A DNA stretch of 64,000 nt. Origin: Burkholderia sp. USMB20 (GTDB lineage Bacteria > Pseudomonadota > Gammaproteobacteria > Burkholderiales > Burkholderiaceae). Where the stretch lies: NCBI RefSeq assembly GCF_000949135.2, contig NZ_JTAN02000021.1, positions 682,001-746,000 of the forward strand. Reading direction: 5' to 3'. The stretch's first letter is position 1. Each line of letters begins with the position of its first letter. The notes under the pieces are model-generated. The model did not search any database, was not told where the DNA came from, and was given only the letters and a program-made list of their open reading frames with translations. The position numbers and the translations under genes are program-made. This document shows positions 15,663 through 45,508 of the stretch, piece by piece.

Positions 15663-17084
15663 TCAAAACGCGTTGCGCCCGACGAAGCCGCGCACGACCG
15701 TCATCAGGATGATCTTCATGTCGAACCAGAAGCTCCAGTTCTGCATGTAGAACAGGTCGAACTTCACGCGCGCGGCCATCGCCTCGACCTTGCGTGTCTC
15801 GCCGCGATAGCCGTTCACCTGCGCCCATCCCGTGATTCCCGGCCGGACGCGATAGCGATACATGTAGCAGTCGATCAGTTGCCGGTAGAAGTCGTCGTGT
15901 TCGATCGCGTGCGGACGCGGGCCGACCACCGACATCTGGCCGAACAGCACGTTGAAGAACTGCGGCAACTCGTCGAGCGACGTGCGTCGCAGGAACGCGC
16001 CGACCGGCGTGATGCGCGCATCGTTGCGCGAGGCCTGTCGCACGACACCGGGCTGTACGCGATGCACGCGCATCGTCCTGAACTTGAGGATATGGAACTC
16101 GCGCCCGTCGGCGCCCTTGCGGCGCTGCCTGAACAAGACGGGCCCCGGCGACGACAGCTTCACCGCGATCGCCAGCGCCGCGAGCAGCGGCAGCAGCGGA
16201 ATCAGTACGGCGCCGGCGAACAGCCGGTCGAACGCGAACTTCGCCCACAGTTCCGGCGCGGAACGCGGCGTGGTCGCGAGGTTGATGGCCGGCATGCCGA
16301 GCACATCGGTCGCGGATCGCTCGACGACCGCCATCTGCCGCACGTCCGGCAACAGCCGCAGCTCGACGAACTCGTCGCGCAGTTCGCGCACGATGCGCTG
16401 GATGCGTGACTCGTGCGACATCGGCAGCGTGAGCCACACTTCGTCGATCTCGCCGCCGCGGATCATGCGCCGCAACGCGACCCAGTCGTCGATCACCGGC
16501 ACGCCGCCGATCCCGTCAGCCGTGGCCGCGGCCGGTGCATCGTCGTCGAATACGCAGGCAGCCGCGAACGGCCCGGCCGGTTCGAGCTGCATGCGCTCGA
16601 TCGCCACCCGTCCGTAAGCGGTCGCCCCGACGACCGCAACCCGCCGCTGCCGCGCGCGCGGATCGCCACGCTTCATCGCCAGCGCGCAGAGTGCCAGCCT
16701 GCCGAGCAGCAGTGCCGCGTCGCCGGACAGCACCGTCCGCGCGATCCAGCGCGTCGTGACCGTGCCGCCGCGGTTCATGATCCACATCGTGCCGGCCACC
16801 GTCAGCGTACCCACGCACACGACGGCCACCACCGTGCGCGTCAGCACGGCACCGCCGTCGTGCGGCGACGCCGCGCCGCGCGTCACGCGCACGCTGCGCG
16901 GCAACAGCGCGACGGTCAGCACGCACAGCAATGCGACCGTGCCGCGCTGCGCGTCCGACAGATCGTGCCACGCGAGCCCCATCGCAGCCTGCGCGGCGAG
17001 CGCACCTGCCAGCACCAGCGCAACATCGACCGCGGCGATCGCGGCGCGTCGCATCGCATTCGTTCCACCCGCCATCGCATGCAT
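15663..17084 (-). CDS. Undecaprenyl-phosphate hexose-1-phosphate transferase (WcaJ/PssY-like)
   Basis: Starts assembly of an EPS repeat unit by moving a sugar-1-phosphate (usually glucose) from UDP-sugar to undecaprenyl phosphate at the inner membrane. The 473-aa protein has four or five N-terminal membrane helices, a CoA-binding-like Rossmann segment (VAVVGATAYGRVAIERM, about residue 155), one further helix (FAGAVLIPLLPLLAALAIAV) and the C-terminal bacterial sugar-transferase domain with KFRTMRV, DELPQFFNVLFGQMSVVGPRP and YRVRPGITGWAQVNGYRGET. The ATG lies 2 bp after the stop of the upstream CRP/FNR gene, so both form an operon. The EPS cluster at 28-47 kb lacks its own priming transferase, so this gene may serve it. 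Confidence 0.92.
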   Translation of the reverse strand: MHAMAGGTNAMRRAAIAAVDVALVLAGALAAQAAMGLAWHDLSDAQRGTVALLCVLTVALLPRSVRVTRGAASPHDGGAVLTRTVVAVVCVGTLTVAGTMWIMNRGGTVTTRWIARTVLSGDAALLLGRLALCALAMKRGDPRARQRRVAVVGATAYGRVAIERMQLEPAGPFAAACVFDDDAPAAATADGIGGVPVIDDWVALRRMIRGGEIDEVWLTLPMSHESRIQRIVRELRDEFVELRLLPDVRQMAVVERSATDVLGMPAINLATTPRSAPELWAKFAFDRLFAGAVLIPLLPLLAALAIAVKLSSPGPVLFRQRRKGADGREFHILKFRTMRVHRVQPGVVRQASRNDARITPVGAFLRRTSLDELPQFFNVLFGQMSVVGPRPHAIEHDDFYRQLIDCYMYRYRVRPGITGWAQVNGYRGETRKVEAMAARVKFDLFYMQNWSFWFDMKIILMTVVRGFVGRNAF

Positions 17085-17086
17085 CG

Positions 17087-17869
17087 TCACACACCGTGCG
17101 CGGGGAAACCGCCGTGCAGGTCCTGCATGCGCGGCCGCACCGGCACCGCACGCGCGCCGGCCCGCGTGCCGAGCAGCCGGCGATAGTCCGCGCGAATCAG
17201 CTCGTAGCACTCGCATGCCTGGCGCTCGAGACCGTCGCGATCGAGCACGGTGATGCGGCCGCGACGCTGACGGATCAGCCCGGCTTCCTGCAGGTTGCCG
17301 GCCGCTTCCGTCACGCCTTCGCGACGCACGCCGAGCATGTTCGCGATCGTCTGCTGCGTGACGGCCAGTTCGTCGCCGTCGATCCGGTCATGCGCGAGCA
17401 GCAGCCAGCGGCTCAACTGCTCGCTGACCGAGTGATGCCGGTTGCACAACGCGCTGCGCGAAATCTGCGCCATCGTCGCCTGGCAGTAGTTCAGCAGCAG
17501 CCGATACGTCGCCGGCGAACGTTCGAATTCCGAGCGCATCACGCAGGTCGGCACGCGGTAGGCCATCCCGCCGATCCGGACTTCGACGCGATTCGATACC
17601 GCGGTGCCGCCGACGAGCGTCGCCAGGCCGACCACACCTTCGCGGCCGACCACGGCGACCTCGACCATCGCTCCGTCCTCCATCAGGTGCTGCACCGACA
17701 TCATGGCGGTGGTCGGGAAATGCAGGTGGCGCATCGGTTCCCCGACACGGTCGAGCATGCCGGCCTTGATCCGGACCAGTTCGAGGTGCGGTGCGATGGC
17801 ACGGATGCTGTCCTCCGGAAGGGCATCGAGGATGGCATTCGCCGAATAGCTCGAGTGAAGATGAAGCAT
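17087..17869 (-). CDS. CRP/FNR-family transcriptional regulator (first of two)
   Basis: A 260-aa regulator with an N-terminal cyclic-nucleotide-binding-like beta-roll (LHFPTTAMMSVQHL, then VEVAVVGREGVVG) and a C-terminal winged helix with recognition segment QTIANMLGVRREGVTEAAG. The cNMP phosphate-binding residues of E. coli CRP are not evident. In B. cenocepacia a related CRP/FNR protein (Bcam1349/BerA) is a c-di-GMP effector controlling biofilm EPS; this gene or its neighbour at 18774 could be the counterpart, but I cannot decide which. Start at MLHLHSS with AAAGGGA upstream. It is co-transcribed with the polyprenyl-phosphate sugar transferase and divergent from the second regulator across an AT-rich island. 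Confidence 0.88.
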   Translation of the reverse strand: MLHLHSSYSANAILDALPEDSIRAIAPHLELVRIKAGMLDRVGEPMRHLHFPTTAMMSVQHLMEDGAMVEVAVVGREGVVGLATLVGGTAVSNRVEVRIGGMAYRVPTCVMRSEFERSPATYRLLLNYCQATMAQISRSALCNRHHSVSEQLSRWLLLAHDRIDGDELAVTQQTIANMLGVRREGVTEAAGNLQEAGLIRQRRGRITVLDRDGLERQACECYELIRADYRRLLGTRAGARAVPVRPRMQDLHGGFPAHGV

Positions 17870-18773
17870 GTCTGTATCCCTTTTATCGTCCGCGCCGCAT
17901 GCAGCCGCGTCAGCGGAATTCGTTATCGCGATGCGCGCCCGGACGGCGACGCGGGTTGCGGCCCACAACCCTCGATCCAATCGACCCACGGCGTCTCGCC
18001 GCTGGATCGAATCGGCCGTCCCGTTTCGACACGCCCGTTTCGATAAGCGATTTACGTGCCAATACCCGCTCCATCCTTAATATATAAATGACTTGCGATT
18101 TAGCGCCCCCGAATAGCCGATCGAAAACCGCAAAAAACGTCTCATTTCCGGACACCCGCTTGCGTCGCGGACGCAGCCGGCAATTCGACTGATCATTGAG
18201 CGCGGGGCCGGCAGTGGAACCGGCAGCGGCGCGGGAGTCTTATCGTTCAATAACTTACACCCGGTTTTCAATTGTTTCCATGATGTCTCAAACGGGCCAG
18301 AGTCGCGTGCCGCACGCTCGAATGGTCGTTTGAAACTGTCTCAAATATGAATCGCCGGATTAATTTACAACACTGTAATCAAACGCACATATCTCACGCA
18401 ACACCATGATTTAATTAATAAATCATACCCGCGAATCTCAATTGTCAAATAATGTTCAATGCATTCTAGATATTTTTCTTGTACGATGCACTTCGTTGCC
18501 GGATTGATTCTCGATCAGCACCGAATTCGCGATTCACCCTCCAGTGCAATTAATTCATACGAAGACGATCTTCAAATACCTATAACCTTTTCATTTACCC
18601 CGAATCGTCAAACATTGTGAAGTGACGTAATGCGCAATTTATCGAATTGAATTGCGTGCTAGCCTTTTTCGCCATCGGCATTCGAATTTCTATGAACACG
18701 AATCCGCACGTGCGTGCTAAATCCCCGTGGATGGCGCCGCGCGATGTGCGATCGCTCCCTACGAGGATCCGCC
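17870..18773. promoter_or_regulatory. 900-bp AT-rich regulatory island between two CRP/FNR genes
   Basis: No gene is visible. The stretch 18240-18690 is much richer in A+T than its surroundings, and it contains TGTCTCAAA twice as a direct repeat (18284-18292, 18337-18345) plus an inverted pair TCAAACG (18288-18294) / CGTTTGA (18327-18333). The genes on both sides are transcribed outward. This looks like a large shared control region, possibly H-NS-bound, for the two regulators. Confidence 0.5.
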
Positions 18774-19556: not shown

Positions 19557-19601
19557 TGCGCACGGCGTGTCGGCGCACGCGTGCGACGCGAGTCAGCCGA
19601 T

Positions 19602-19644
19602 TGTAGGGTGGCGAACAGAACGCCGGGCGTGCGAATGGTCTACT
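19602..19644 (+). promoter_or_regulatory. Possible third copy of the EPS promoter element, before the carrier-protein operon
   Basis: TGTAGGGTGGCGAAC (19602-19616) matches 12 of 15 bases of the block GGTAGGCTCGCGAAC found before two EPS genes (32212 and 45305). A weak -10-like TCTACT follows after 22 nt, against 21 nt to TATCAT in the other two copies. Twelve of fifteen would occur about once or twice by chance in the whole window, so its placement just before this operon is the main support. Confidence 0.4.
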
Positions 19645-19724
19645 GATGCCGGACTGCCGGGGGGATGTCAGCGCGCTGCGCGCGTCCGCCCTTGCGGACG
19701 ACACCTCACACGCCGGAGCAGCAC

Positions 19725-19976
19725 GTGAAAAACGAAATCAGAACCATCCTCAAGCACGTCGCCCACCTCGAAGCCGCGATCGACTCGATCGGTGACGGGG
19801 ATGACCTCTACGAAGCGGGCCTCTCCTCGCTCGATACGATCCAGCTGATGCTCGCGATCGAGAAGCAGTTCAACATCGAGATTCCCGACGAGATGCTGAA
19901 CCGCAATCTGTTCCGCAGCGTCGACGCGCTCGCGGACACGATCGCGACCCTGCAACGCGCCGAGCATTCCGCATGA
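19725..19976 (+). CDS. Acyl/peptidyl carrier protein
   Basis: An 83-aa carrier protein of the four-helix ACP fold. The phosphopantetheine attachment serine is Ser35 in GLSSLDTIQLM, followed by the usual acidic helix II (LAIEKQFNIEIPDEM). Start is GTG with CCGGAG seven bases upstream; no suitable ATG exists. It is first in a five-gene operon in which every junction overlaps by four bases (ATGA, GTGA, ATGA, GTGA). Next to a seryl-tRNA-synthetase-like ligase, it most likely carries an amino acid rather than a fatty acid, as in the Bradyrhizobium amino acid:carrier protein ligase systems. The phosphopantetheinyl transferase is not in the window. Confidence 0.92.
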   Translation: MKNEIRTILKHVAHLEAAIDSIGDGDDLYEAGLSSLDTIQLMLAIEKQFNIEIPDEMLNRNLFRSVDALADTIATLQRAEHSA

Positions 19977-21169
19977 GCGCGCTGCTTCCCGAACTCGCGG
20001 CCGACGACGAACCACGCCGGCTCGACGAGGCCGCGCACGCCGTCGCGCAAATCGCCGCCCAGCACGCGGATGCGGTCGACCGGGACGCGCGCTGCCCTGT
20101 CGAGGCGATCGAGGCCATGCGTGCGCGCCGCCTGCTGAGCGCAATGGTCCCGACCCGGCTCGGCGGCGCCGGCGCGTCGCTGGCCGACGTCGCATCGGCA
20201 TGCTCGATCCTCGGCCAGGCCTGCGCATCGTCGGCGATGGTGTTCGCGATGCACCAGATCCAGGTGGCCTGCATCGTCAATCACGCGGCCGACCAGGGCT
20301 GGCACAAGCTGTTCCTGCAACAGCTCGTGCGCCATCAGTGGCTGCTCGCGTCGGCGACGTCGGAGGACGGCGTCGGCGGCAACCTGCGCGCGAGCCAGTG
20401 CGCGCTCGAGACCAACGGCGGCGAATTCCGGCTGCACAAATCCGCGCCGACGATCTCGTACGGCGACTACGCGGACGGCATCCTCGCGACCGCGCGGCGC
20501 GACGCCGACGCGCCGGCGTCCGAGCAGGTGCTCGTCACGGTGCTGCGCGACGGCTATACGCTCACGCGCCGCGGCGAATGGGACACGCTCGGCATGCGCG
20601 GCACGTGCAGCAACGGCTTCGTGCTCGATGCACAGGGCACGACCGTGCAGTGCCTGCCCGTGCCGTTCGCGCAGATCGCCGAACAGACGATGGTGCCGGT
20701 TTCGCACATCCTGTGGGCGGCGGTGTGGATCGGCGTGGCCGGCGACGCGTTCCATCGCGCGCACCAGTTCTTCCGCATGCAGGCGCGCCAGACCGACGGT
20801 GCACCGTCGCCCGCGTCGCGGCGCATCGCCGAATCGCTTGCGCTGATGCAGGCGATGCAGGCCCGCGTCGACAGCGTGCTGCGCCTCTACGCCAGCGCAT
20901 CGCCCCGCTCGTGGTCGGCCGGCATGGCCTGGGCCGCCGAGATCAACACGCTGAAGACCTATGTGTCGTCGACCGCGCTCGAAGTCGTCCAGCAGGCGAT
21001 GATGATCTGCGGGATGGCCGGCTACAAGCACGGCACACCGTTCAGCATCGGCCGCCACCTGCGCGACCTGCACGCGGCGCCGCTGATGATCAGCAACGAC
21101 CGCATTGCCGCCAATACCTCGAGCCTGCTGCTCGCACTGCGTCCCGCGACGCTGGAGAAACATTCGTGA
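19973..21169 (+). CDS. Acyl-CoA dehydrogenase-like flavoprotein
   Basis: A 398-aa protein of the acyl-CoA dehydrogenase fold: an N-terminal helical part with MVPTRLGGAGASLADVASACSIL, a central beta domain (SATSEDGVGGN, then SYGDYADGILATAR), and a C-terminal four-helix bundle. It probably oxidises, or simply binds, a substrate held on the carrier protein encoded just upstream, with FAD as cofactor. The usual catalytic Glu cannot be placed with certainty, so a hydroxylase or non-catalytic role is possible. ATGA overlap with the carrier gene and GTGA overlap with the ligase gene show tight coupling. Confidence 0.88.
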   Translation: MSALLPELAADDEPRRLDEAAHAVAQIAAQHADAVDRDARCPVEAIEAMRARRLLSAMVPTRLGGAGASLADVASACSILGQACASSAMVFAMHQIQVACIVNHAADQGWHKLFLQQLVRHQWLLASATSEDGVGGNLRASQCALETNGGEFRLHKSAPTISYGDYADGILATARRDADAPASEQVLVTVLRDGYTLTRRGEWDTLGMRGTCSNGFVLDAQGTTVQCLPVPFAQIAEQTMVPVSHILWAAVWIGVAGDAFHRAHQFFRMQARQTDGAPSPASRRIAESLALMQAMQARVDSVLRLYASASPRSWSAGMAWAAEINTLKTYVSSTALEVVQQAMMICGMAGYKHGTPFSIGRHLRDLHAAPLMISNDRIAANTSSLLLALRPATLEKHS

Positions 21170-22137
21170 ACGATCGCCTCTCCGTGCCTTCCGCCGCCAC
21201 CCCGTCCGACGCGCCGCTCGACCGCGCGGGCGTCAATCCGCTGCGCGACGAGCTGATCGATGCGGGCCTGCTCGTGTCGACCGGCATCCAGGGCCTGTTC
21301 GGCCGCAGCGAGCGGTTCGAGCGCGTCGTCGAAGCGCTCGACGCCTTCGTCACGCGCCTCGGCGCCGACCAGCAGGCCGAAGTGCTGCGCTTCCCGCCGG
21401 CGATGAGCCGCACCGAATTCGAGCGCAGCGAATACATGAAGAGCTTCCCGCAACTCGCGGGCAGCGTGCATGCGTTCTGCGGCGACGAACAGCGGCACCA
21501 GCGCGTGCTGCAGTGCCTCGACCGCGGCGAGGACTGGACCGAAAGCCAAAAGCCGACCTACGTCGTGATGACGCCGGCCGCCTGCTATCCGGTCTATCCG
21601 GTCGTCGCGCGTGCCGGTGCCCTGCCCGGCGACGGCCGCATCGTCGACGTGTTCTCGTATTGCTTCCGCCACGAGCCGTCGCTCGACCCGACCCGCATGC
21701 AGCTGTTCCGGATGCGCGAATACATACGCATCGGCACGCCCGAGCAGATCGTCGCGTTCCGCGCGACGTGGATGGAGCGCGGCACACGGATGATCGAGGC
21801 GCTGCAACTGCCGAACGCGATCGATCTCGCGAACGATCCGTTCTTCGGGCGCGGCGGCAAGATCGTCGCGAACAGCCAGCGCGAGCAGAACCTGAAGTTC
21901 GAGCTGCTGATCCCGATCGAGCACGACGACCGCCAGACCGCGTGCCTGAGCTTCAACTACCACATGGATCACTTCGGGCTGCTGTGGGACATCCGCACCG
22001 CGACGGGCGACGTCGCGCACACGGGCTGCGTCGGCTTCGGCCTCGAGCGGCTGACGCTCGCGCTGTTCCGTCATCACGGTTTCGACCTCGACGCATGGCC
22101 GGCCGACGTTCGCGACGTGCTGTGGGGTACGCGATGA
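21166..22137 (+). CDS. Amino acid:[carrier protein] ligase (class-II seryl-tRNA synthetase homologue)
   Basis: Activates a small amino acid (glycine or alanine in characterised relatives) as aminoacyl-AMP and loads it on the phosphopantetheine of a carrier protein instead of tRNA. The 323-aa protein equals a SerRS catalytic core with no N-terminal tRNA-binding arm. Class-II motif 2 is seen as SYCFRHEPSLDPTRMQLFRM and motif 3 as GFGLERLTLALF. The three zinc ligands of this family are present: Cys140 (TPAACYP), Glu185 (FRMREYIRIG) and Cys288 (HTGCVGFG). The GTG start overlaps the preceding stop. Its carrier protein is three genes' worth of coupling away in the same operon. Confidence 0.93.
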   Translation: MNDRLSVPSAATPSDAPLDRAGVNPLRDELIDAGLLVSTGIQGLFGRSERFERVVEALDAFVTRLGADQQAEVLRFPPAMSRTEFERSEYMKSFPQLAGSVHAFCGDEQRHQRVLQCLDRGEDWTESQKPTYVVMTPAACYPVYPVVARAGALPGDGRIVDVFSYCFRHEPSLDPTRMQLFRMREYIRIGTPEQIVAFRATWMERGTRMIEALQLPNAIDLANDPFFGRGGKIVANSQREQNLKFELLIPIEHDDRQTACLSFNYHMDHFGLLWDIRTATGDVAHTGCVGFGLERLTLALFRHHGFDLDAWPADVRDVLWGTR

Positions 22138-23188
22138 AATTCGTGTCCCGCGACGGCGAGGACGCGTCGTTCGAGGACGTGCGCCACCGCGCACGCCACT
22201 ATCGGCCGCACCCGCTGCACAGTCAGGAGATGGTCTGGAAACAGACCAACTGCTATGTCGACATGTGGCTCGAGGTGCTCCGCTGGTGGGGCCTCAACCC
22301 GTACGCGGCGCTGCCGTTTACGATCGCGCTCGACTTCGAGGGCGACCAGTTCACGTTCTTCAAGTTTCCGCACGACGAACTGGAGCGGCTGTACGGCATC
22401 GTCGTGCAGGAACACTCGATCTACGAGCCGCTCGACCAGCACATCGAGACGCAGGTCGCGCGCGGTCACCTGATGATCGTCGAGGTCGACGCGTGGTTCC
22501 TGCCGGACACGCGCGGCAGCAGCTACCGCACGCAGCATACGAAGACGACGATCGGCATCGACTCGATCGATCGCACGCGCCGCCAGATCGGCTACTTCCA
22601 CAACAGCGGCTATTACGTGGCCGAGGACTTCGACTACAACGGGCTCGTCGGCGGCTGTTCGCCGATGCCGCTGCCGCCGTACGTCGAGTGCGCGAAGCGG
22701 CGTTTCGCACCGCTCGACGAGCGCGCGCTGTGCGAAGTCTCGCTCGCGTCGCTGCAGCGGCATCTGCGCCGGCTGCCGGTCGTCAATCCGGTCACGGCGT
22801 TCCGGCGCCAGTTGCAGCTCGATGCGAAATCGCTCGCCGATTCCCCGCTCGAACGCTTCCACGCGTACTCGTTCAATTCGGTGCGGCAACTCGGCGCGAA
22901 CTTCGAACTGTTCGGCCATTACGCGCGCTGGCTGCAGGCGAGCGGCTGCGTCGGGCCGTTCGCCGAGATTCGTACCGCCTGCGACCGCATCGCGTCCGAG
23001 GCGATGGTGCTGGAGTTCCGGCTGGCGCGGGCGTGTGCGCGCGGCAAGGAAGAGCGCGGCGACGCGACGCTCGAAGCGATCGAAGCGGCTTACGCCGACC
23101 TGATCGACTGCGCGCGGCAGATCGCCCGCCGCTGCAGCACGCGGCGCCCGTGCGCGTCGACGCGGCCGCCGCGCCGTTGCTGCGGTGA
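22134..23188 (+). CDS. DUF1839 family protein with apparent -1 frameshift near its 3' end
   Basis: Protein of unknown function that recurs beside amino acid:carrier-protein ligases. Conserved-looking segments include WKQTNCYVDMWLEVL, the acidic DFEGDQFTFFKFP, YRTQHTKTTIGIDSID and YFHNSGYYVAEDFDYNG. The frame begun at 22134 runs past the end without a stop into the next gene's shadow frame, turning Arg/Cys-rich after about 23125. The other frame there reads LQHAAPVRVDAAAAPLLR and stops at TGA 23186-23188, exactly forming the GTGA overlap with the next gene. I infer one missing base around 23121-23135 (mutation or sequencing error). With it restored the protein would be about 350 aa. A methyltransferase- or transferase-like fold is possible but not shown. 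Confidence 0.8.
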
Positions 23189-25659
23189 CGCGCGCGCATG
23201 CCGCGCTCGCGTGGTCGCTGCTCGCCACGGCCGCGGGTGCCGCGCGCGGGCCGCTCGATCTTCCGGCCGACGGCTGGATCGCCGCCCCCGTCCCCGGCAC
23301 GGTCGCGCAGGCGCTCGCGCTGGCCGGCCGGGCCGACGACACCGCGTCGCTCGACGAGCGCGACCACTGGTATCGCGTCGAACTGCACGGGCACGGGCCG
23401 CGCGTGCTGCGCTTTCACGGCCTCGCGACGCTCGCCGAGGCATGGCTCGACGACACGCCGATCCTGCGCTCGGACAGCATGTTCGTCGCGCACGACGTGC
23501 CCGTGTCGCTCGACGGCACGCACCGGCTGACCGTCTGCTTCCGCGCCCTCGCGCCGCACCTGCGCGATGTGCGCGCACCGCGCCGCGCACGCTGGCGCAC
23601 GCGGCTCGCCGAACCGGCGACGTTGCGCACCGTTCGCACGTCGCTGCTCGGGCACATGCCCGGCTGGTTTCCGCGCTGCGTGCCGACCGGTCCGTGGCGG
23701 CCCGTCGACGTGCTGGACCCTGCCGACGGTCCCGTTCTCGTCCACTGCGACCTGCACGCCCGCATCGACGGCGATACCGGCTGGCTCGATGCGGAACTCG
23801 CGTTCGCCGGGCCGCTGCCCGATGCGTTTGCAGCCCGGCTGTCGTGCGGCGAGCACCACGCGACGCTCGAACGCCGCGGCGCCGACCGGCTGCATGCGAC
23901 CGTCGCCGTGCCGAACGTGCGCCGCTGGTGGCCGCACACGCATGGCGAACCGGTGCTTTACGAGGTCGCATTGCACATCGGTGCCGAACGGCGGCCGCTC
24001 GGCGCGACGGGCTTTCGCACGATCGAACCGGACGCGGGCGACGACGGCAAGGGGTTCGGGTTGCGCGTCAACGGCGTGCGCGTGTTCGCGCGCGGCGCAT
24101 GCTGGAGCAGCGCCGCACCGCTCGCGCTGCACGCGGACGACGCGACCTATGGCCGGCTGCTCGGATACGCGCGCGACGCCGGCTTCAACATGATTCGCGT
24201 CGGTGGCACGATGACCTACGAGGCCGACGCATTCCATGCGTGGTGCGACCGGCTCGGACTGCTCGTCTGGCAGGACTTCATGTTCGCGAACTTCGACTAT
24301 GCGCTCGACGATCGCACCTTCGCGGACGCCGTCGGTCGCGAAGCCGAACAGTTCCTCACGCGCGTACGCGCGTCGCCGTCGCTCGCGGTGCTGTGCGGCG
24401 GCAGCGAGATTGCGCAGCAGGGCGCGATGTCGGGGCTCGGGCCGAAGCAGCGCTTCCTCGAACTGACCGCCGAGCGCCTCGCCGACCACGCGGCGGCACG
24501 GCGGCCCGACGCGCTGTACGTCCCCGACTCGCCCGACGGCGGCGTGCTGCCGTTCATGCCGCGCGAGCGCGTGTCGCACTATTACGGTGTCGGCGCGTAC
24601 CTTCGCCCGCTCGACGACGCGCGTCGCGCCGACGTGCGCTTCGCGAGCGAATGCCTCGCGTTCGCGAACGTGCCGTGCGATGCGATGCTCGCCAGCCTCG
24701 GCTGGCCGGGCGTGCACGAGCCGCGGTGGAAAGCGGCCGTGCCGCGCGACCCCGGCACGTCGTGGGATTTCGACGATATTCGCGATCATTATCTGCAGAC
24801 GTTGTACGACGTGGCGCCCGACCGCCTGCGGCGCGAGGATCCGTCGCGCTACTTCGAGCTGTCGCGCGCGGTGATCGCGGACCTGATGCGGGACACGTTC
24901 TCGGAGTGGCGGCGCACCGGCTCACGCTGCGCGGGTGCGCTCGTCTGGCAGTTCCAGGATGTGATGGCGGGCGCCGGATGGGGCTTGCTCGATGCGGCGC
25001 ATCGGCCGAAATCGGCGTGGTATGCGCTGCGCCAGGTACTTCAGCCCGTGCAGGTCCTGCTCGTCGACGAAGGGCTGAACGGGCTCGACGTGCACGTGAT
25101 CAACGAGCGGCCGGCGCCGCTGTCGGCGGCCGTCGAGCTGGTCGCGCTGCGCGACGGCCGCACGCCGCTCGCGCGTGCCGGCGCTCCGGTCCGGATCGCC
25201 GCGCACGACACGGTGCGGCTCGATTCGGCCGAATTGCTCGGCCGCTTCTTCGACTGGACCTACGCGTATCGCTTCGGCCCGTGCGAGCACGATACCGTCG
25301 TCGCGACACTGCGCGCCGACGACGGCACGCTGCTGTCGCAGGCGTTCTACTTCCCGTCCCGCACGCACCCGGCCGTGTTCGCCCGCCGTGAACCCGGCAT
25401 CGAGGCATGCGTGTCGCGCACCGGCGACACGTGGCACGTCGACATCGGCACGCGCCACGTCGCACGTCACGTGCAGATCGATGCACCGGGCTTCGTGCCG
25501 CGCGACGACTGGTTCGATCTCGCGCCTGGCACGCCGGCGCGTGTCGCGCTCGTGCCGCTCCCGAACACCGGCGGCCAAGCTGCCGCCGGCGCGCCCCCGA
25601 CCGTCGAAATCCGCGCGGTCAACGCCGCGCGAACCGTGCGTGCGGCGTTGACCGGCTGA
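23185..25659 (+). CDS. Glycoside hydrolase family 2 (beta-mannosidase-like) protein
   Basis: An 824-aa protein with the GH2 layout: an N-terminal jelly roll (RFHGLATLAEAWLDDTPIL with the usual DVPVSLDGTHRLTVCF), an immunoglobulin-like domain (VRRWWPHTHGEPVLYEV), then a TIM barrel with GFNMIRVGG, LLVWQDFMFANFDY, a likely acid/base Glu in LCGGSE (about 407) and a likely nucleophile Glu in FASECLAF (about 488). Related enzymes cut beta-mannosides or glucosaminides. There is no signal peptide, so it would act in the cytoplasm. It is the last gene of the carrier-protein operon (GTG start in GTGA), an unexpected partner for an aminoacyl carrier system, and hints at a glycan-linked product. Confidence 0.85.
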   Translation: MTRAHAALAWSLLATAAGAARGPLDLPADGWIAAPVPGTVAQALALAGRADDTASLDERDHWYRVELHGHGPRVLRFHGLATLAEAWLDDTPILRSDSMFVAHDVPVSLDGTHRLTVCFRALAPHLRDVRAPRRARWRTRLAEPATLRTVRTSLLGHMPGWFPRCVPTGPWRPVDVLDPADGPVLVHCDLHARIDGDTGWLDAELAFAGPLPDAFAARLSCGEHHATLERRGADRLHATVAVPNVRRWWPHTHGEPVLYEVALHIGAERRPLGATGFRTIEPDAGDDGKGFGLRVNGVRVFARGACWSSAAPLALHADDATYGRLLGYARDAGFNMIRVGGTMTYEADAFHAWCDRLGLLVWQDFMFANFDYALDDRTFADAVGREAEQFLTRVRASPSLAVLCGGSEIAQQGAMSGLGPKQRFLELTAERLADHAAARRPDALYVPDSPDGGVLPFMPRERVSHYYGVGAYLRPLDDARRADVRFASECLAFANVPCDAMLASLGWPGVHEPRWKAAVPRDPGTSWDFDDIRDHYLQTLYDVAPDRLRREDPSRYFELSRAVIADLMRDTFSEWRRTGSRCAGALVWQFQDVMAGAGWGLLDAAHRPKSAWYALRQVLQPVQVLLVDEGLNGLDVHVINERPAPLSAAVELVALRDGRTPLARAGAPVRIAAHDTVRLDSAELLGRFFDWTYAYRFGPCEHDTVVATLRADDGTLLSQAFYFPSRTHPAVFARREPGIEACVSRTGDTWHVDIGTRHVARHVQIDAPGFVPRDDWFDLAPGTPARVALVPLPNTGGQAAAGAPPTVEIRAVNAARTVRAALTG

Positions 25660-25726
25660 CGCGAGCGGGCGCGAGCGGGCGCGGGACCCGGATCACGCAC
25701 ACGCTCGCACGGCCGCACCGCGAGCG

Positions 25727-27118
25727 TCAGTCCGACGAGCCCGTGCCGCGCGGCCGCTCGATGCCGTACGCTTCCATCCAGCGATAGAGCGTTGCACGCG
25801 ACACGCCGAGCTCGCGCGCGGATGCGGCGACGCGTCCGCGCGTGCGCAGCAGCGCGGTTTCGATCGCTTCGCGCTCGATCGACTTGCGGATGTCGGCCAC
25901 CGACGGCGACGCCGCGTCGAGACAGTATTCGAGCTCGAGGTCCTGCGCGGTGATCAGGCGCCCTTCCGTCATCACGACCGCGCGCCGCACGCGGTTGATC
26001 AGTTCGCGCACGTTGCCCGGCCAGTCATGCTTGTAGAGCGCCGTGATCGCATCCGTCGAAAAGCCGCGCACGCGATGGCGCGCGTCGCCGCGAAAGCGTT
26101 CGAGCATGTGATGCGCGAGCAGCTCGATGTCCTTGCCGCGCGCGCGCAGCGGCGGCTGGTCGATGCGCATCACGCAAAGACGGTGGAACAGGTCCGCGCG
26201 GAAACGCCCTTCTTCCATCGCTTCGCGCAGGTCGACGTGCGTCGCGGAGACGATCCGCACGTCGACCGGCACCGGGTCGCTGCCGCCGAGGCGATGAATC
26301 GCGCGCTCCTGCAGGAAGCGCAGCAGGCTCGCCTGGCTCTCGTGCGGCAGGTCGCCGATTTCGTCGAGCAGCAGCGTGCCGCCGTTTGCGGCCTCGACGT
26401 AGCCGATCTTGCGCGCGTTCGCGCCGGTAAACGCGCCGCGCTCATAGCCGAACAGTTCCGATTGCAGCAGGTGAGGCGGGATCGCTCCGCAGTTGACCGC
26501 GACGAACGGGCCGCTACGCCGTTCCGAATGACGATGGATCGCGACGGCCGTCAGTTCCTTGCCGGTGCCCGTCTCGCCGAACACGAACACGGGCGCGTCG
26601 GTGCGCGCGAAGCGCCGCACCGTATCGAACAGCCGCAACATCGCGCTGCAGGTGCCGACGATACCGTTCTCCTGCGATTCGAGGCGTTCCCGATCGCGCG
26701 CGAACAGGCATTCCATTCCGTACGCATGGCCGACCGTATCGGCAATGCGTTGGTGCGACGCGGGCAACGTGATGTAGTCGAAGCAATAGTCGCGCAACAG
26801 CGCGCGCACGTTCGGCGAGGCGGTCTGGCCGGTCTCGACGAGTGCGACCCACACGACGTCGCGCATCGACGCGCAGGTCGACGCGATGCTGCCGATCGCG
26901 TCGGCGTGACCGCCGCTCAGGTCGAGGATGCCGCAGGTGATTTCGCCGGAGGTATCGCGCAATTCGCTCGCGTGCGCGACGACCGTCACTTTCCAGTCGC
27001 GTCGCGCGAGTTCCTTGCGCAGCATGACGGACGGCGTCTGGGTCCAGTAAATCAGAGGACGCTGCCCGGTAATCCTCTCCCCGCCGGCGCTCTTATCGCG
27101 CGTTATTGGCATATTCAT
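25727..27118 (-). CDS. Sigma-54 enhancer-binding protein of the VpsR/BerB type
   Basis: A 463-aa RpoN-dependent activator. Residues 20-135 form a degenerate receiver-like domain (GILDLSGG with Asp66, DYITLPASHQRIADTVGHAYGM), the AAA+ domain follows with Walker A GETGTGKE (181-188), the sigma-54 contact loop GAFTGA (228-233) and Walker B LLLDEIGD (249-256), and a Fis-type HTH ends the protein (ASARELGVSRATLYRW). The layout matches c-di-GMP-binding EPS activators such as VpsR and B. cenocepacia BerB. It lies between the carrier operon (convergent) and the EPS locus, so control of EPS promoters is likely. A perfect dyad at 27143-27157 may be an autoregulatory site. An ATG two codons later is also possible. 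Confidence 0.92.
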   Translation of the reverse strand: MNMPITRDKSAGGERITGQRPLIYWTQTPSVMLRKELARRDWKVTVVAHASELRDTSGEITCGILDLSGGHADAIGSIASTCASMRDVVWVALVETGQTASPNVRALLRDYCFDYITLPASHQRIADTVGHAYGMECLFARDRERLESQENGIVGTCSAMLRLFDTVRRFARTDAPVFVFGETGTGKELTAVAIHRHSERRSGPFVAVNCGAIPPHLLQSELFGYERGAFTGANARKIGYVEAANGGTLLLDEIGDLPHESQASLLRFLQERAIHRLGGSDPVPVDVRIVSATHVDLREAMEEGRFRADLFHRLCVMRIDQPPLRARGKDIELLAHHMLERFRGDARHRVRGFSTDAITALYKHDWPGNVRELINRVRRAVVMTEGRLITAQDLELEYCLDAASPSVADIRKSIEREAIETALLRTRGRVAASARELGVSRATLYRWMEAYGIERPRGTGSSD

Positions 27119-36148: not shown

Positions 36149-37318
36149 TTACCCGACGTTGACCGGGTTGCCGGTCGCGGCCCGATGATTTCCGAACATG
36201 CGCTTGCCCAGATACGACCTGATCGGTTCTTCAACAAATTTCGCCAGGATGGCGGCGGACACGATCGAAAGAAACGCGGCGATCATCGCGGTTCGGACAA
36301 CGTGGATGTCGGCCTGTGGCGCATACGCGAACACCAGCCTTCCGATCGGATAGTGCACGCAATAAAGCGGATACGAGATCCAGCCGAGGAACGCGCTGAG
36401 CCTTGCAATCGTCTTGCCGCTGGGCGCGAGCATGGCCCCCCGGTAAACCAGCGCAGGTGCGACGAACAGCAGGATAGCCACTGAATACATCCCCTTGATC
36501 GACGACGGAAACGCGACGACCAGCAGGAAAACGACAAACAGCATGTAGTCGTTCTTCACGAGCCCGGCGACGAACCAATGCGGCCTGGCCGAGACACTAG
36601 CGTCATGCATCTTCCCGATCGCCACTCCCAGCAGGAACCCGTAGCCGACCCTGAAGAATCCGCCGATGAAATTATCGGCCGACCAACCCTGATTCAGGAT
36701 CACCGTCAACTTGTCGTTGTCGAGGCCCACGAGCCATCCATACACGACGAAGGCACCGAGGCTCGCATATGCCAGTCGCAGCAGACTCTGCGTCGTCATC
36801 TTGATCGCCGCGATCAGGACCACACTCGCGAACAGCTCGAAGAAGAGCGACCATGCGGGAGGGTTCAGAGGAAACACGCCCGGGTCGTCGACTGCCGGCA
36901 AGCCGTGATTCGCTGCGCCGACAAAGCCTGCCACTGAAAAACGACCGAGATACGGAACTAGAAAGTAGTTCTGGCCGGTGGCTGCCGCCAGGTTACCCAG
37001 CGAAAAGGCCGCCGACGAGTGCATACGCATGACGACGAGGCTCGCGAACCCGATCGTGAACCCGATGCATATCATCGGATACAGGCGCATCACGCGTCGC
37101 TTCAAATACTCGCCCCACCACGACTCCTGACGCAGTCTTTCGCCATAAGAGTAGGTCAGGATGAATCCACTCAGCATGAAAAAAACGTCTACCGAAAGAT
37201 ATGCACTCTGCAATATCGGAATCGGCAGGTCCTGAAGGAAATGCATGAACATCACGCTGATGGCTGCAATGCCGCGCAACCCGTCCAGAATTTCGAACTT
37301 CTGCTTGTGAGTAGCCAT
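36149..37318 (-). CDS. OafA-type acyltransferase 3 membrane protein
   Basis: An integral membrane O-acyltransferase that decorates the EPS, usually with acetyl. The 389-aa protein opens with FEILDGLRGIAAISVMFMHF, the family hallmark with the catalytic histidine, followed by VDVFFMLSGFILTYSYG and the RRVMRLYPM segment; about ten hydrophobic helices follow and the end is KFVEEPIRSYLGKRMFG. No SGNH extension is present. Start set at the ATG at 37318 (MATHKQK); upstream in-frame sequence is noise. It is the last gene of the minus-strand wza-wzc-wzy run, after a gap of 128 bp. Confidence 0.93.
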   Translation of the reverse strand: MATHKQKFEILDGLRGIAAISVMFMHFLQDLPIPILQSAYLSVDVFFMLSGFILTYSYGERLRQESWWGEYLKRRVMRLYPMICIGFTIGFASLVVMRMHSSAAFSLGNLAAATGQNYFLVPYLGRFSVAGFVGAANHGLPAVDDPGVFPLNPPAWSLFFELFASVVLIAAIKMTTQSLLRLAYASLGAFVVYGWLVGLDNDKLTVILNQGWSADNFIGGFFRVGYGFLLGVAIGKMHDASVSARPHWFVAGLVKNDYMLFVVFLLVVAFPSSIKGMYSVAILLFVAPALVYRGAMLAPSGKTIARLSAFLGWISYPLYCVHYPIGRLVFAYAPQADIHVVRTAMIAAFLSIVSAAILAKFVEEPIRSYLGKRMFGNHRAATGNPVNVG

Positions 37319-37446
37319 GAAAGGTAGTGGCTCCGGGAAATATTGATTTTTGGGACCCGGCAATCTACAAAGTGGTCGCATGCCCCGTACCGCACGACCC
37401 TTGCTGTTATCGCGACAAGACCGGATCGACGTCCGTGGCCCGATTC

Positions 37447-38808
37447 TCAGGCGACGGCACGCCCGCCTCCATCTCCACCGGATCCGGCGCCGGCGGCATC
37501 GGGCGCAGCACATGCCCGAGCTTTTGCGAACCAGTGGAACACGGCGATCAGCAGTACGACCGGCACGAAATTCCGCCCGCTGAACAGATTCGGGGTCCGC
37601 ATGATTTCCATTACCGACACGAACAACACCGCGTGTGCGCAGCACCAGAACCCGTTCCCGCTCCGCCAGCCCGCATAACTGCGACCCACCACCCAGCCGA
37701 GCACGAGTGCGTCGAACAGGCCGAACCAGCCCCACTCGTAGAAGTGGACGAAAATCCCCGACGGGTTATTGAACTCCGGATCGGCGTAGCCGTTCAGGAA
37801 CAGGTTGATGCTGTCGCCCGAGTCGAGCCACGGCTGCAACGTCGCTCCGATGATCGGGAAGCGCAGCAGCCAGTCGAACGTGAACATCGGGTGGCCCTGG
37901 TCCCAGCCCAGCACACTCAGTATTCCCGCGCCGTTGTTCAACGACGTCGAGTAGTACAGACCCAGGCGTTCGAGCGCGAAATCGAACAGGTTGTCGTAGA
38001 TGTTGACGTAATAGGCTTCCCACGACCGGTTGTACTCGTTGGCGATGAACAGCCCGAACAACAGCGGGATCGCCGCATACGGACCGAGCGTCAACAACCT
38101 CGAATACCTGCCGCCGAGCCGGAATCGAACGACCATGAGCGCAAGCGGCATCATCATTTCAATCAGCGCAAGCCGCTCGGCGAAGATGAAGCTGCGCAGC
38201 AGCGTCAGCGCCGCGAGCACGGCAAAGTAGATCTTGTAGCGATTCAGTCCCTTTACCGGTGTCCTGAACACATAGAAATACAGTACGACGTACGGTGCGG
38301 TCGCCTGCGTGAACGTGCTGAGGCCCGTAATGCGCCCTTTCAGATCGAGCATGTCGTACGCATTCGCTTCGCCCCGGACGAACGCGACCAGCAGTGCCGG
38401 ATGCGTGACGATGCCGCTCAACAACAGGGCATAGCCGAACAGAGCGAGCGCGAACACGAAATCGAGCACGCGAGGCGACAGTTCGACTGTGGCGGGCGGC
38501 GGACCCCGCCGCGTCTGCACTTCGGTCGTCGCGAGCCATGCCGTGGCCATCACCACCACCAGGAACAGCGCGCCGACGAACGCGTAGTAGCCGTCGAAGT
38601 AGATCCGCGCAATCGACTTCTGGTCGCCCAGCAGGCTGAGCGACAGCAATCCATACAGCGGCAGGATGAACATCAGCACGAGGCGTGCCGGGTCCTCCCA
38701 CCAATATCCCGTATACCCGCCCGCGGGACCGCGCACGCGCGCCATCCGGCGCATCGTCGCCGGGCCCTGTCGCGGCCCGGCCCCTGCTCCGCCCGCTCGC
38801 CAGTTCAT
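37447..38808 (-). CDS. Wzy-like EPS polymerase / membrane protein
   Basis: A 453-aa polytopic inner-membrane protein with about 11-12 helices (for example LVLMFILPLYGLLSLSLLG and YAFVGALFLVVVMATAW) and a large periplasmic-type loop in the second half (NEYNRSWEAYYVNIYDNLFDF through FNNPSGIFVHFYEWGWFGLF). Its place directly after the Wzc gene (ATGA overlap) and its topology fit the polymerase that joins repeat units. Wzy proteins have little sequence conservation, so the call rests mainly on topology and context. The C-terminal tail is Ala/Gly-rich and cytoplasmic. Confidence 0.8.
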   Translation of the reverse strand: MNWRAGGAGAGPRQGPATMRRMARVRGPAGGYTGYWWEDPARLVLMFILPLYGLLSLSLLGDQKSIARIYFDGYYAFVGALFLVVVMATAWLATTEVQTRRGPPPATVELSPRVLDFVFALALFGYALLLSGIVTHPALLVAFVRGEANAYDMLDLKGRITGLSTFTQATAPYVVLYFYVFRTPVKGLNRYKIYFAVLAALTLLRSFIFAERLALIEMMMPLALMVVRFRLGGRYSRLLTLGPYAAIPLLFGLFIANEYNRSWEAYYVNIYDNLFDFALERLGLYYSTSLNNGAGILSVLGWDQGHPMFTFDWLLRFPIIGATLQPWLDSGDSINLFLNGYADPEFNNPSGIFVHFYEWGWFGLFDALVLGWVVGRSYAGWRSGNGFWCCAHAVLFVSVMEIMRTPNLFSGRNFVPVVLLIAVFHWFAKARACAAPDAAGAGSGGDGGGRAVA

Positions 38809-42363: not shown

Positions 42364-42411
42364 CGTGCCCTTCCAAAACTGTGCGGTAACCCGCCGAACG
42401 CGGCGAATTCC

Positions 42412-42427: not shown

Positions 42428-42490
42428 GCGCGGCTCGCATCGCGGTGCCGCACCTCCCTCTACACCGCACGTCAAACCGTACGATTCGTC

Positions 42491-43071: not shown

Positions 43072-44928
43072 TCACGACCGGCCAACGGACACGCTCGTGT
43101 ACGATCGCGCGGCCGCTTCGGGTGCGGCCGGATCGGCGACGCGCGCGACCGGCCGGATCGAGTCGCGACCGAGCGCCTGCATGCACCGGTCGATCACGAT
43201 GTCCGTGCCCACCGCGCCGTACACCGCATGGTCGACCTGCGGCTCGAGGTACAGACGCACGTGACGCGAGCACCGGAACGCGCGCTCGATTGCACCGAAG
43301 TGACGCCGGACATCGTCGATACCGGGATCGAGCGCGCCGTACACCAGCGTCGTCCATACGTTGCGCTGCGCAAGCTCGTGCATCACGCCGCGCGGCGTGC
43401 CGATGCCGGGCTTCCAGCCGACGCGTGCTGCAAGCGCCTTCGCCGGCACACTGACCCGCGCGATCGCATTCGCGGCCACCGCCCGCACGATCGGCCGCAG
43501 GTCGCGCCGATCCCGCACGAGGCGCTTCCATTTCTGCCAGTCGCGCACCGACAGCCAGTAACCGCGCACCGAGTTGTTCCGCTGCTTCTGCACTGCCTCG
43601 AGCGAGAGTCCGGCCGGCCACACGAAGCGGGCGAGATTGATCGCGATCACGCCGCCGAGCGACGGCGTCTTCACGGCCGCATGCAACGCCGCATAGGCGC
43701 CGGAACAAATGCCCGCCGCGGCCACCTCGGGGTGACCGAGCGCGCGCAGCCAGTCCGCGGCACCGGCCACGTCGTCGCTCGATCGCGCCGAATACACGAC
43801 GCCAGACTGGTCGTCCAGCGCGGCGGGCCCGCTATCGCCGACGCCATGCACGTCGATCCGCAGTGTCGTCACGCCGGTGCGTGCCAGCGCACGCGCGAGG
43901 CGCACGCTGAAGCGCCCTTCGCCGCTGCGCGGGTTCGTCGACGTGTTCGCGATCACGAGCGCCGGGCCGACCGGATTCGCCGGCCGCGTGTCGGCGGGAC
44001 GGCACAGCACGCCGACGAGCCGGTCCGGACCGACCGCGACGACCTGCTCGGTCATGTCGTGCAGGTCCAGCGCGACGGCCGACTCGCCATTCCACGCCGA
44101 ATCCGTTTGCATCGGGGTTTCGGCGCCAGCCGACATACGCGGCGCGCGTTCGGCGATCCAGTTCGCGAGCGTGTCGATCGCCGCGAGCGGCAAGCGCGAG
44201 CGCGTGCCGTCCAGCATCGTCGTCGGCCATTCGCGGAATGCATCGCTCGCCACGTCCACACCGCGCTCGAACAGCGCTTCGCGCAATGCCGGCCCGTCGC
44301 CCTGATCGGGCTGGATCAGCAGCATCGCGCCAGGCAACGTCGGCGCATCGCGCACGACGTCGCACAGATCGACCGCCTTCAACGCATCGACGAAGTCGTC
44401 GGGAAACCGGTGTCCGAGCACGTTCATGCACGGTTCGTCGCGATGCGCGGCGCGGATCGCGGGCGACGTGATATCGAGCCACTGGCGATGCACGAACGAC
44501 AGCTCGCGCAGGTAGGCGCGACCGCGCACGACCGGCGCCAGCGCCACCAGTGCGTCGACGCGCGGCGCCGGGCGCGGGCCCACGCCCGCGGCGGCCAGCA
44601 TCGCGAACAACGCGCCCGCGCGGATCCCGACGAGCGTCAGCGTGGTTACGCCAACCTGATCGCGCAACAGGTCGATCGCGTCGTGAATGCTGGCGATGCT
44701 CGCGACATACCGACCGGCGTCGCGATCGTCTCCCGCCGAGTCGCCGGTGCACGGGTAGTTGAATCGCAATACCGTGACACCCTCGCGGGCCAGCCGCTCC
44801 GCGATCGCCCGCATGAGCTTGTGCGTCCACGATGCCTCGTGACCCAGCGATTCGCACAGGATCACGCCTTGTGTCGTATGTCCTTCGTGCAGCCACCCCA
44901 CGCAGCTGCCGAACGTTATCGGCTTCAA
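43072..44928 (-). CDS. Tandem alpha/beta hydrolase (exosortase-system-associated hydrolase-like)
   Basis: A 618-aa protein made of two alpha/beta hydrolase domains in one chain. Domain 1 (residues 1-300) has RFNYPCTGDSAGDD and the elbow GIRAGA, with Arg where the nucleophile should be. Domain 2 (from about 320) has RIDVHGVGDSG and GICSGAY, with Cys at the nucleophile position. Both patterns are like the hydrolase 1/2 genes found with exosortases and NRPS clusters. I start at TTG (44928), which has GAGGAG seven bases upstream and removes a family-untypical extension from the ATG at 45024. It is divergent from the flippase gene. No exosortase gene is present. Possible role: EPS-linked esterase or thioesterase. 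Confidence 0.82.
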   Translation of the reverse strand: MKPITFGSCVGWLHEGHTTQGVILCESLGHEASWTHKLMRAIAERLAREGVTVLRFNYPCTGDSAGDDRDAGRYVASIASIHDAIDLLRDQVGVTTLTLVGIRAGALFAMLAAAGVGPRPAPRVDALVALAPVVRGRAYLRELSFVHRQWLDITSPAIRAAHRDEPCMNVLGHRFPDDFVDALKAVDLCDVVRDAPTLPGAMLLIQPDQGDGPALREALFERGVDVASDAFREWPTTMLDGTRSRLPLAAIDTLANWIAERAPRMSAGAETPMQTDSAWNGESAVALDLHDMTEQVVAVGPDRLVGVLCRPADTRPANPVGPALVIANTSTNPRSGEGRFSVRLARALARTGVTTLRIDVHGVGDSGPAALDDQSGVVYSARSSDDVAGAADWLRALGHPEVAAAGICSGAYAALHAAVKTPSLGGVIAINLARFVWPAGLSLEAVQKQRNNSVRGYWLSVRDWQKWKRLVRDRRDLRPIVRAVAANAIARVSVPAKALAARVGWKPGIGTPRGVMHELAQRNVWTTLVYGALDPGIDDVRRHFGAIERAFRCSRHVRLYLEPQVDHAVYGAVGTDIVIDRCMQALGRDSIRPVARVADPAAPEAAARSYTSVSVGRS

Positions 44929-45508
44929 TCGGTACTCCTCGGCTCGGTATTTGTTATCGGATGCGGACACGCGTCCGGCGGCTCCACCGGAATCGGCCAC
45001 TCCACGGTCATGTGACTGCTCCACGACGCACAGCCTTCACGCAACGGACCTCCGCCGCGCCCCTGCGCAACCCGTCCGCCCTTCGCGATGCGTTGTCCTG
45101 CCCCCGCTGCCTGGCGGCGGCAGGTCGCCGGCCCGAGTCATCGTCAAGCCATTTCCTCCGCACACCCAAACAGTCGTTCGATTAGAGCACTCGGCCCGAG
45201 CGCCCTTCGGTGCGCCAGCTTACAAATGCATTCATTACCGTGGCGATACAACGAGGCGCCCGCTGTTCCGATTCGCGCCGCGCGTGTGCGCCTAATCCGC
45301 GAAAGGTAGGCTCGCGAACACAGTCGTCCCGCTCGCCCCGTATCATGACCGCCATGCGATGTGGCCGTGTCCGGCATCGCCGGACGAAACCGGCGCCAGC
45401 CGGAACGGGCCGCGAACCCACGCAGCCGGGTCAGCGCCGACCGGCCGCGCGAGCGCACGGCGGCCCGCACCTCGCCGCCCTGCGACACCCACGGCGCCGA
45501 CCAAGCGA
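44929..45508. promoter_or_regulatory. Divergent promoter region of hydrolase and flippase genes
   Basis: A 580-bp gap with no supportable ORF. It contains copy B of the two-block element (45305-45359), 150 bp before the flippase start, in the same relation as copy A to the GT2 gene. Confidence 0.5.
45305..45359 (+). promoter_or_regulatory. Two-block EPS promoter element, copy B
   Basis: Block 1 GGTAGGCTCGCGAAC (45305-45319) is identical to copy A; block 2 (45339-45359, CGTATCATGACC to CCATGCGA) differs at two positions; both copies have a 19-nt gap of unrelated sequence. TATCAT (45341-45346) is a likely -10 box. Conservation of the blocks and the gap length, but not the gap sequence, is what a protein-bound promoter would show. 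Confidence 0.7.

Follow-up and report, generated by a model that had tools for sequence, protein, structure and literature searches.

A Conserved Carrier-Protein Cassette in the bep Exopolysaccharide Locus of Burkholderia and a Proposed Route From an Amino Acid to an Amino Sugar

The Five-Gene Cassette

The window considered here, i.e., the whole stretch of 64,000 nucleotides that was analyzed (Burkholderia sp. USMB20, contig NZ_JTAN02000021.1, positions 682,001 to 746,000 of the forward strand), carries five contiguous open reading frames (ORFs) at 19725..25659. These ORFs, here called the cassette, encode a small carrier protein (CP), a flavoprotein with an acyl-CoA dehydrogenase (ACAD) fold, an amino acid:carrier protein ligase that resembles seryl-tRNA synthetase (SerRS), a DUF1839 protein and a GH2 enzyme:

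19725..19976, + strand: CP, 83 amino acids, GTG start, PF00550, NF005480 (147 bits)
19973..21169, + strand: ACAD-fold flavoprotein, PF02771/PF00441
21166..22137, + strand: SerRS-like amino acid:carrier protein ligase, 323 amino acids, GTG start, NF005479
22134..23188, + strand: DUF1839 protein, PF08893 (424 bits)
23185..25659, + strand: GH2 enzyme, GTG start, PF22666 (Glyco_hydro_2_N2)

Exactly 4 bases are common to every adjoining pair of ORFs, and both these overlaps and the protein families agree with a preliminary description made from the sequence alone. Across loci the overlaps themselves are only partly conserved, being found for CP and flavoprotein in 99/110 loci, flavoprotein and ligase in 34/117, ligase and DUF1839 in 71/104, and DUF1839 and GH2 in 37/92. 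In these junction counts, as in the residue counts below, eight loci can count twice, since L114-L121 also appear in a shorter form as L106-L113, and two further pairs of loci (L025/L105 and L073/L122) have identical DUF1839 proteins. The cassette is 87-89% identical in nucleotide sequence to its counterparts in Burkholderia cenocepacia, arboris and multivorans. All five genes are under purifying selection, with a median ratio of nonsynonymous to synonymous substitution rates (dN/dS; 15 Burkholderia comparisons per gene) of 0.090 for the CP, 0.139 for the flavoprotein, 0.109 for the ligase, 0.134 for DUF1839 and 0.170 for GH2; single values span 0.043 to 0.426, both extremes coming from the short CP. 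Since the gene order is also kept in distant proteobacteria (see below), the cassette is not a chance grouping. As for its promoter, a search for sigma-70-like sites at 17900-25900 gave none, and sigma-54 patterns were not above chance over the window (20 counted, 22.7 expected).

Distribution and Gene Order

A blastn search against plasmids returned 71 records, 13 of which cover at least 80% of the query, including Mycetohabitans with the same five annotated genes, while Azospirillum plasmid records with the five genes reach 75-76% query coverage. The five genes stand in the same order in all eight annotated cassette loci (L011-L015, L018, L019, L022). The co-occurrence of the five families with exopolysaccharide (EPS) loci, which the preliminary description had proposed to survey, was followed in 80 DUF1839 loci from named genomes; these are the best-scoring of at least 533, are mostly from Burkholderiaceae and were found through DUF1839, so that loci without this gene cannot appear among them, and the short loci L001-L010 were left out of the count. 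The ligase is present in 75 of the 80 loci and all five genes in 71. GH2, whose place in the operon had been regarded as decisive, is found in 72 of the 75 ligase-bearing loci, and two of the three exceptions (L026 and L034, but not L101) lie at contig ends. An EPS gene lies within 10 kb of DUF1839 in 65 of the 75, and a BerA-like regulator in 64. Thus the cassette belongs to a real and conserved pathway of a recognizable kind, undescribed as judged from open PMC papers, and the earlier view of an undescribed conserved system built around a carrier-protein ligase and tied to an EPS locus is supported.

In the ligase tree the DUF1839-linked ligases fall on one side of a branch (100 rows, support 96/85), apart from nine ligases without DUF1839. 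Elsewhere CP, flavoprotein and ligase are encoded with neither DUF1839 nor GH2. A Priestia plasmid (L016, 808-16695) carries the three alongside a thioesterase, an alanine permease, a racemase and an ATP-grasp relative of dapdiamide synthase, a set that resembles a gene cluster for a dipeptide natural product. In six alphaproteobacterial loci (L127, L128, L130-L133) the flavoprotein adjoins the ligase, DUF1839 and GH2 were not matched, and the ligases lie outside the DUF1839-linked set; a CP gene was matched near the ligase in all of these except L133. A Tsukamurella plasmid (L017, 6731-16900) carries CP and ligase among EPS glycosyltransferases, with no match for the flavoprotein or DUF1839. 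The cassette can therefore be read as a loading-and-oxidation module to which an amide-forming exit has been added.

Carrier Protein and Ligase

The phosphopantetheine site of the CP is Ser35, and the serine is invariant in 115/115 proteins (it is numbered 55 in the alignment, which uses a longer frame). The ligase matches NF005479, the amino acid--[acyl-carrier-protein] ligases, with 558.2 bits (cut-off 357), and its matches in the PDB by phmmer include 4h2w (4e-94) and 3mey (2e-91). It consists of a class II core without the tRNA-binding domain, SerRS models being matched only from about position 306 of 518. Cys140, Glu185 and Cys288, which we take to be the zinc ligands, had already been pointed out in the ligase; indeed they are invariant in 119/119 ligases, and each aligns to an identical residue in the solved Bradyrhizobium ligase. 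By analogy with this family the ligase probably loads an amino acid onto the CP, not onto tRNA; its specificity (glycine or alanine) is not readable from sequence. According to a 2022 review (PMC9437257), it is still unknown what purpose the aminoacylation of carrier proteins by these ligases serves in the cell.

The DUF1839 Protein

Along its whole length the predicted model of DUF1839 adopts a fold of the CcbD/LmbD/CtaG/AziU3 type, with CcbD as a close neighbor. This suggests a papain-like condensing enzyme, with Cys40 as the probable nucleophile and His156 and either Asp167 or Glu185 as its partners, and on the basis of the fold a role as an amide-forming transfer enzyme is likely. Among 119 proteins Cys40 is kept in 111, His156 and Asp167 in all 119, and Glu185 in 118. 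The spacing between Cys and His in the linear sequence is 116 residues in DUF1839, compared with 117 in CtaG (C11 and H128, as taken from variant names) and 112 in CcbD (C19 and H131). A different triad, C-(T/S)-H, is assigned to DUF1839 in the available text of a 2023 survey (PMC10318531).

Loci of the Cupriavidus type (L020 at 19446-20642, L075, L084, L096, L059 and L126) carry two DUF1839 genes, of which the second, stand-alone copy retains the Cys. In five loci (L052, L053, L063, L079 and L099) the cassette has decayed or been deleted, leaving DUF1839 as an open gene; the L079 copy, which retains the Cys, was left out of the residue counts and trees.

Flavoprotein and GH2 Enzyme

The AlphaFold model of the flavoprotein (pLDDT 86) has the ACAD fold, and its best structure matches are tied between acyl-CoA dehydrogenases, including ColB1, and flavin mononucleotide (FMN) monooxygenases. 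The title of the ColB1 structure refers to dehydrogenation of an assembly-line-tethered cysteine. Ile373 and Ser244 occupy what are presumably the two usual places of the catalytic Glu (the position of medium-chain acyl-CoA dehydrogenase, MCAD, or of isovaleryl-CoA dehydrogenase, IVD), so that no catalytic Glu is present at either. The earlier proposal of a dehydrogenase producing an oxidized amino acid thus stands as far as the fold is concerned, but dehydrogenation becomes only one option because the usual Glu is missing. A plain acyl-CoA dehydrogenase step was set aside on this ground and because the structure matches are tied, no choice being made between them. The missing Glu does not exclude dehydrogenation, since 7p98, a solved dehydrogenase in the same alignment, also lacks it at the first of the two places. 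The flavoprotein probably acts on the aminoacyl-CP.

The nearest solved relatives of the GH2 enzyme are beta-mannosidases. The motif before its acid/base is SE, not NE (S407 in 96/98 proteins, E408 in 97/98), and the nucleophile E489 is kept in 97/98. The His/Trp position near C2/C3, its place being judged from the alignment, is never His or Trp but Gly340 in 74/98, Ser in 15, Pro in 6, Ala in 2 and a gap in 1. The SE motif and a small residue at the His/Trp position are described as traits of subfamily GH2_14, whose wider pocket was proposed to admit substituted sugars and whose Ser change is common to glucosaminidases; a B. mallei member cleaves p-nitrophenyl-beta-galactoside (pNP-beta-galactoside) at 2.8 per minute, not mannobiose (all from the accessible part of PMC12243196). 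A beta-mannosidase was set aside on account of the SE motif, the missing typical Trp and the lack of detectable mannobiose activity in those GH2_14 enzymes that were assayed. A substituted or 2-amino sugar as GH2 substrate would suit a DUF1839 protein that accepts amines.

A Sixth Partner

The five-gene extent given at the outset is correct for the cassette, but it misses a sixth gene, which also lies in the bep locus, at a distance of 17 kb:

43072..45024, - strand: tandem alpha/beta-hydrolase, Bcam1334 counterpart, second domain with a GxCxG nucleophile elbow

A tandem hydrolase of 590-650 amino acids directly follows GH2 in Azospirillum, Mycetohabitans and the Burkholderia locus L137, and its gene faces GH2 in R. 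rhizoryzae and Phyllobacterium. DUF1839 is present in 34 of 37 Burkholderia genomes, and the identical 34 have the tandem hydrolase, the remaining three having neither. Among alphaproteobacterial genomes with the cassette the hydrolase was found in 11/11 searched, on the same contig in nine. In 398 Pseudomonadota genomes DUF1839 was found in 16, the full-length hydrolase in 17 and the ligase above cut-off in 28 (20 of these ligase loci were taken at 14-18 kb, those of G001 and G018 as short loci, and six were not taken). All 16 DUF1839 genomes fall within the hydrolase and ligase sets (Fisher p 1.2e-27 and 2.2e-21, relatedness ignored). At E up to 0.001 some hydrolase match occurs in 65/398 genomes, 48 of these partial.

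The only one of the 398 genomes with the full-length hydrolase and no DUF1839 (G379, locus L134, 6514-10309) has an amino acid adenylation protein, a CP and the tandem hydrolase in a row beside Wzc. This CP scores above the NF005480 cut-off and shares 36/76 residues with the CP of the window, while the adenylation protein is above cut-off for TIGR01733 and reaches 271 bits against DltA, under the cut-off of 560. At L135 (7792-17749) a two-module nonribosomal peptide synthetase is followed by hydrolase 2 and hydrolase 1 as separate genes, beside a polysaccharide flippase, and the Tsukamurella EPS cluster has a weaker match to the tandem hydrolase (30% over 485 columns, 65 bits). Because of these contexts and the co-occurrence with the cassette, the tandem hydrolase appears to travel with carrier-bound amino acids. 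The second domain has GxCxG in 32/32 rows and the first GxRxG in 24/32, a pattern that suggests that one domain forms a Cys acyl-enzyme and that its partner is inactive.

The bep Locus

The cassette is surrounded by the bep exopolysaccharide locus, which was described in B. cenocepacia. The preliminary description had noted an adjacent EPS regulator; a regulator does adjoin, and it belongs to this published locus. The neighboring genes are:

15663..17216, - strand: undecaprenyl-phosphate sugar transferase, PF02397 (219 bits)
17087..17989, - strand: Crp/Fnr-type regulator, BerA counterpart by position, PF13545
18714..19556, + strand: Crp/Fnr-type regulator directly upstream of the cassette, PF13545 and PF00027
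25727..27118, - strand: sigma-54 activator with VpsR domain, BerB counterpart, PF00158 and PF20161
28337-28999, + strand: GNAT-like acyltransferase
28996-30570, + strand: mannose-1-phosphate guanylyltransferase
36149..37735, - strand: membrane acyltransferase (Acyl_transf_3), PF01757
38805-41078, - strand: Wzc kinase
41137-42453, - strand: Wza export protein

The window thus holds counterparts of Wza, Wzc, Wzx, glycosyltransferases, ManC, acyltransferase, TIGR03100 hydrolase, beta-helix protein, berB and berA in one region, matched by gene kind, not by sequence. In the parts of the published tables available, Bcam1330-1341 comprise Wza, Wzc, Acyl_transf_3, a TIGR03100 hydrolase, glycosyltransferases, Wzx, a beta-helix protein, ManC and a predicted acyltransferase (PMC3584217, Table 2), and BCAM1342 is berB and BCAM1349 berA (PMC9684580, Table 2), both encoding effectors of cyclic di-GMP (c-di-GMP). 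A sigma-54-like -24/-12 site with one mismatch (18046-18061, - strand) lies directly in front of the gene for the BerA counterpart rather than in front of the cassette, which agrees with the published control by BerB. In B. cenocepacia NCTC13227 (L035) a second Crp regulator and the five cassette genes lie between berB and berA, with the searched genes in the same order, although such scans reveal only query genes and intervening genes are possible. Since six tags are left between berB and berA, the cassette should by count correspond to BCAM1343-1347. No mention of BCAM1343 to BCAM1347 was found in open PMC papers, nor in the available part of PMC3584217, and a search of open PMC papers for DUF1839 gave a single paper. 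A need for the cassette in wrinkled colonies is unsupported, as the mutants described there fall in genes of the bep cluster.

Proposed Pathway and Alternatives

With a probability of about one half, the six genes, five of them contiguous, form a carrier-protein pathway in which an amino acid is activated and coupled to an amine carried by a sugar. In such a pathway the ligase would load an amino acid, probably glycine or alanine as judged from the characterized family, onto the phosphopantetheine of Ser35 of the CP, and the flavoprotein would oxidize the tethered residue. Cys40 of DUF1839 may then take the aminoacyl group from the CP as a thioester and give it to an amine to form an amide, as the fold and the conserved residues suggest; the model for this step is CcbD, which forms an amide with an amino sugar. 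The weakest step is that of GH2, whose substrate might be a substituted or 2-amino glycoside and whose action might free or trim either the acceptor or the product. Finally, the tandem alpha/beta-hydrolase, with its putative Cys nucleophile, could release or pass on carrier-bound acyl groups, and the bep membrane acyltransferase may place the group on an exported glycan.

A wider picture, which we put forward tentatively, is that a relative of the aminoacyl-tRNA synthetases (aaRS), a CP and a CcbD-like enzyme form a line similar to lincosamide synthetase, which would supply the rhizosphere or the biofilm matrix with an (oxidized) aminoacyl amino-sugar, be turned on with c-di-GMP in Burkholderia and have spread on plasmids in root-associated alphaproteobacteria. 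In this picture the amino acid:carrier protein ligases and DUF1839 would gain a first biological role; the group could have been missed in Bep owing to alkaline extraction, or the product may be a separate one. The earlier suggestion of amino acid transfer to an amine or glycan gains support from the predicted fold of DUF1839 and meets a published Bep without an amino acid.

Several observations weigh against the proposed pathway. The Bep repeat, in the part of the structural analysis available, is a neutral Gal-Glc-Gal-Man (Gal, Glc and Man 2:1:1) without amino acid or amino sugar, and the ten transposon mutants that lost wrinkling map to six of the 12 genes of the bep cluster (available part of PMC3584217). 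Because the mutants and the structure give no support, the link between cassette and EPS rests on gene neighborhood and the shared sixth gene. During extraction Bep spent 3 h in 0.3 M NaOH, and the measurements were made at 50 C in 0.3 M NaOD. A stoichiometric amide should have shown in that analysis; the cassette may have been silent in the BerA-overproducing strain used, or it may make a separate compound. No amino-sugar gene is seen in the cassette, the stretches viewed at L011 and L012 contain no EPS genes, and the slow cleavage of pNP-beta-galactoside by the B. mallei GH2_14 enzyme says nothing for amino sugars. CcbD, CtaG and AziU3 are absent from the PDB sequence matches of DUF1839 at E up to 10, and since no sequence kinship was found, DUF1839 is described as working like the CcbD family, not as a member of it. 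Furthermore, the in-operon DUF1839 of Cupriavidus has Arg or Gln in place of the Cys (8 rows, one clade), and 5 of the 80 loci keep DUF1839 with no ligase found genome-wide, the completeness of these genomes not being established; DUF1839 could therefore have another job. Among the matches, 17/50 for the hydrolase carry one or two stops inside the aligned stretch and one for the ligase (G256) carries one.

Some of these points suit other explanations. A secreted small molecule, i.e., a free aminoacyl-amino-sugar or dipeptide-like compound acting as signal, antibiotic or in a siderophore-like manner, would account for the plasmid cassettes of Azospirillum and Rhizobium without EPS genes in view, for the transporters of the major facilitator superfamily (MFS) within about 10 kb of the CP in 4/8 annotated loci (L011, L015, L018 and L019, directly upstream in L018), for the company of the Priestia module and for the origin of AziU3, CcbD and CtaG, all from antibiotic pathways. 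The EPS location would then reflect shared c-di-GMP control only, which sits poorly with an EPS gene near 65 of the 75 ligase-bearing loci, and we consider this explanation unlikely. Dlt chemistry is the model for an ester decoration, in which the Cys hydrolase and the membrane acyltransferase would bring aminoacyl groups to Bep hydroxyls, leaving DUF1839 and GH2 to editing or salvage. Aminoacyl esters are labile in alkali and would not survive the extraction of Bep, the NaOH and NaOD in which it was handled being conditions that remove esters. An Acyl_transf_3 protein is encoded in bep, and in Mycetohabitans another directly before the CP (L013, 12047-13288); the DltA match of the L134 adenylation protein and the five genomes that retain DUF1839 without ligase fit as well. 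CcbD, the close fold neighbor of DUF1839, makes amides however, and ester decoration seems quite improbable. Very improbable, in our view, is that DUF1839 is a papain-like hydrolase that processes glycans at the cell wall, which is consistent with the papain-like fold and was guessed from gene context in the 2023 survey (available part of PMC10318531).

If the proposed pathway is true, it would give DUF1839 a function and would link an enzyme derived from aaRS to glycan or amino-sugar chemistry. It would also help to explain the unusual pocket of GH2_14, and would mean that a natural group may have been lost from Bep extracted with alkali. The present data identify six partner genes, among them a likely transfer enzyme that resembles an enzyme of known mechanism and solved structure, in a locus that is regulated and well studied.

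Comparison With Known Systems

The ligase belongs to the same family as Bradyrhizobium amino acid:carrier protein ligase 1 (Bll0957; PDB 3mey and 4h2w). In the six alphaproteobacterial loci noted above (L127, L128, L130-L133), unlike in the window, neither DUF1839 nor GH2 was matched. The published bep cluster of B. cenocepacia (BCAM1330-1349 region) consists of BCAM1330-1341, berB and berA, i.e., the same gene kinds as in the window. In exosortase loci, hydrolases 1 and 2 stand together with genes for a carrier protein and an acyl ligase. The tandem hydrolase matches these exosortase A-associated hydrolases in both of its domains (TIGR03100 and TIGR03101; 71 and 74 bits), with scores far under the cut-offs of 168 and 203, and in the window gene the two are fused.

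The closest parallel to the proposed line is lincosamide synthetase (LmbC/CcbC, a CP and LmbD/CcbD), which combines a stand-alone loading enzyme, a small CP and a papain-like Cys acyl-enzyme, as proposed for the cassette. The former loads by an adenylation domain, whereas the cassette would load by a SerRS relative. We know of no counterpart of the flavoprotein, GH2 or the tandem hydrolase in lincosamide clusters, and unlike these the cassette is Gram-negative, lies mostly in an EPS locus and shows no amino-octose genes. In the accessible descriptions the acceptor of lincosamide synthetase is an amino sugar and CcbD forms amides. Finally, cassette GH2 shares the SE motif with the GH2_14 glycosidases BmGH2_14 and SdGH2_14 and, if the alignment places the His/Trp position correctly, probably also a small residue there, and BmGH2_14 of B. 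mallei, likened here by traits and not by sequence comparison, is its probable relative.

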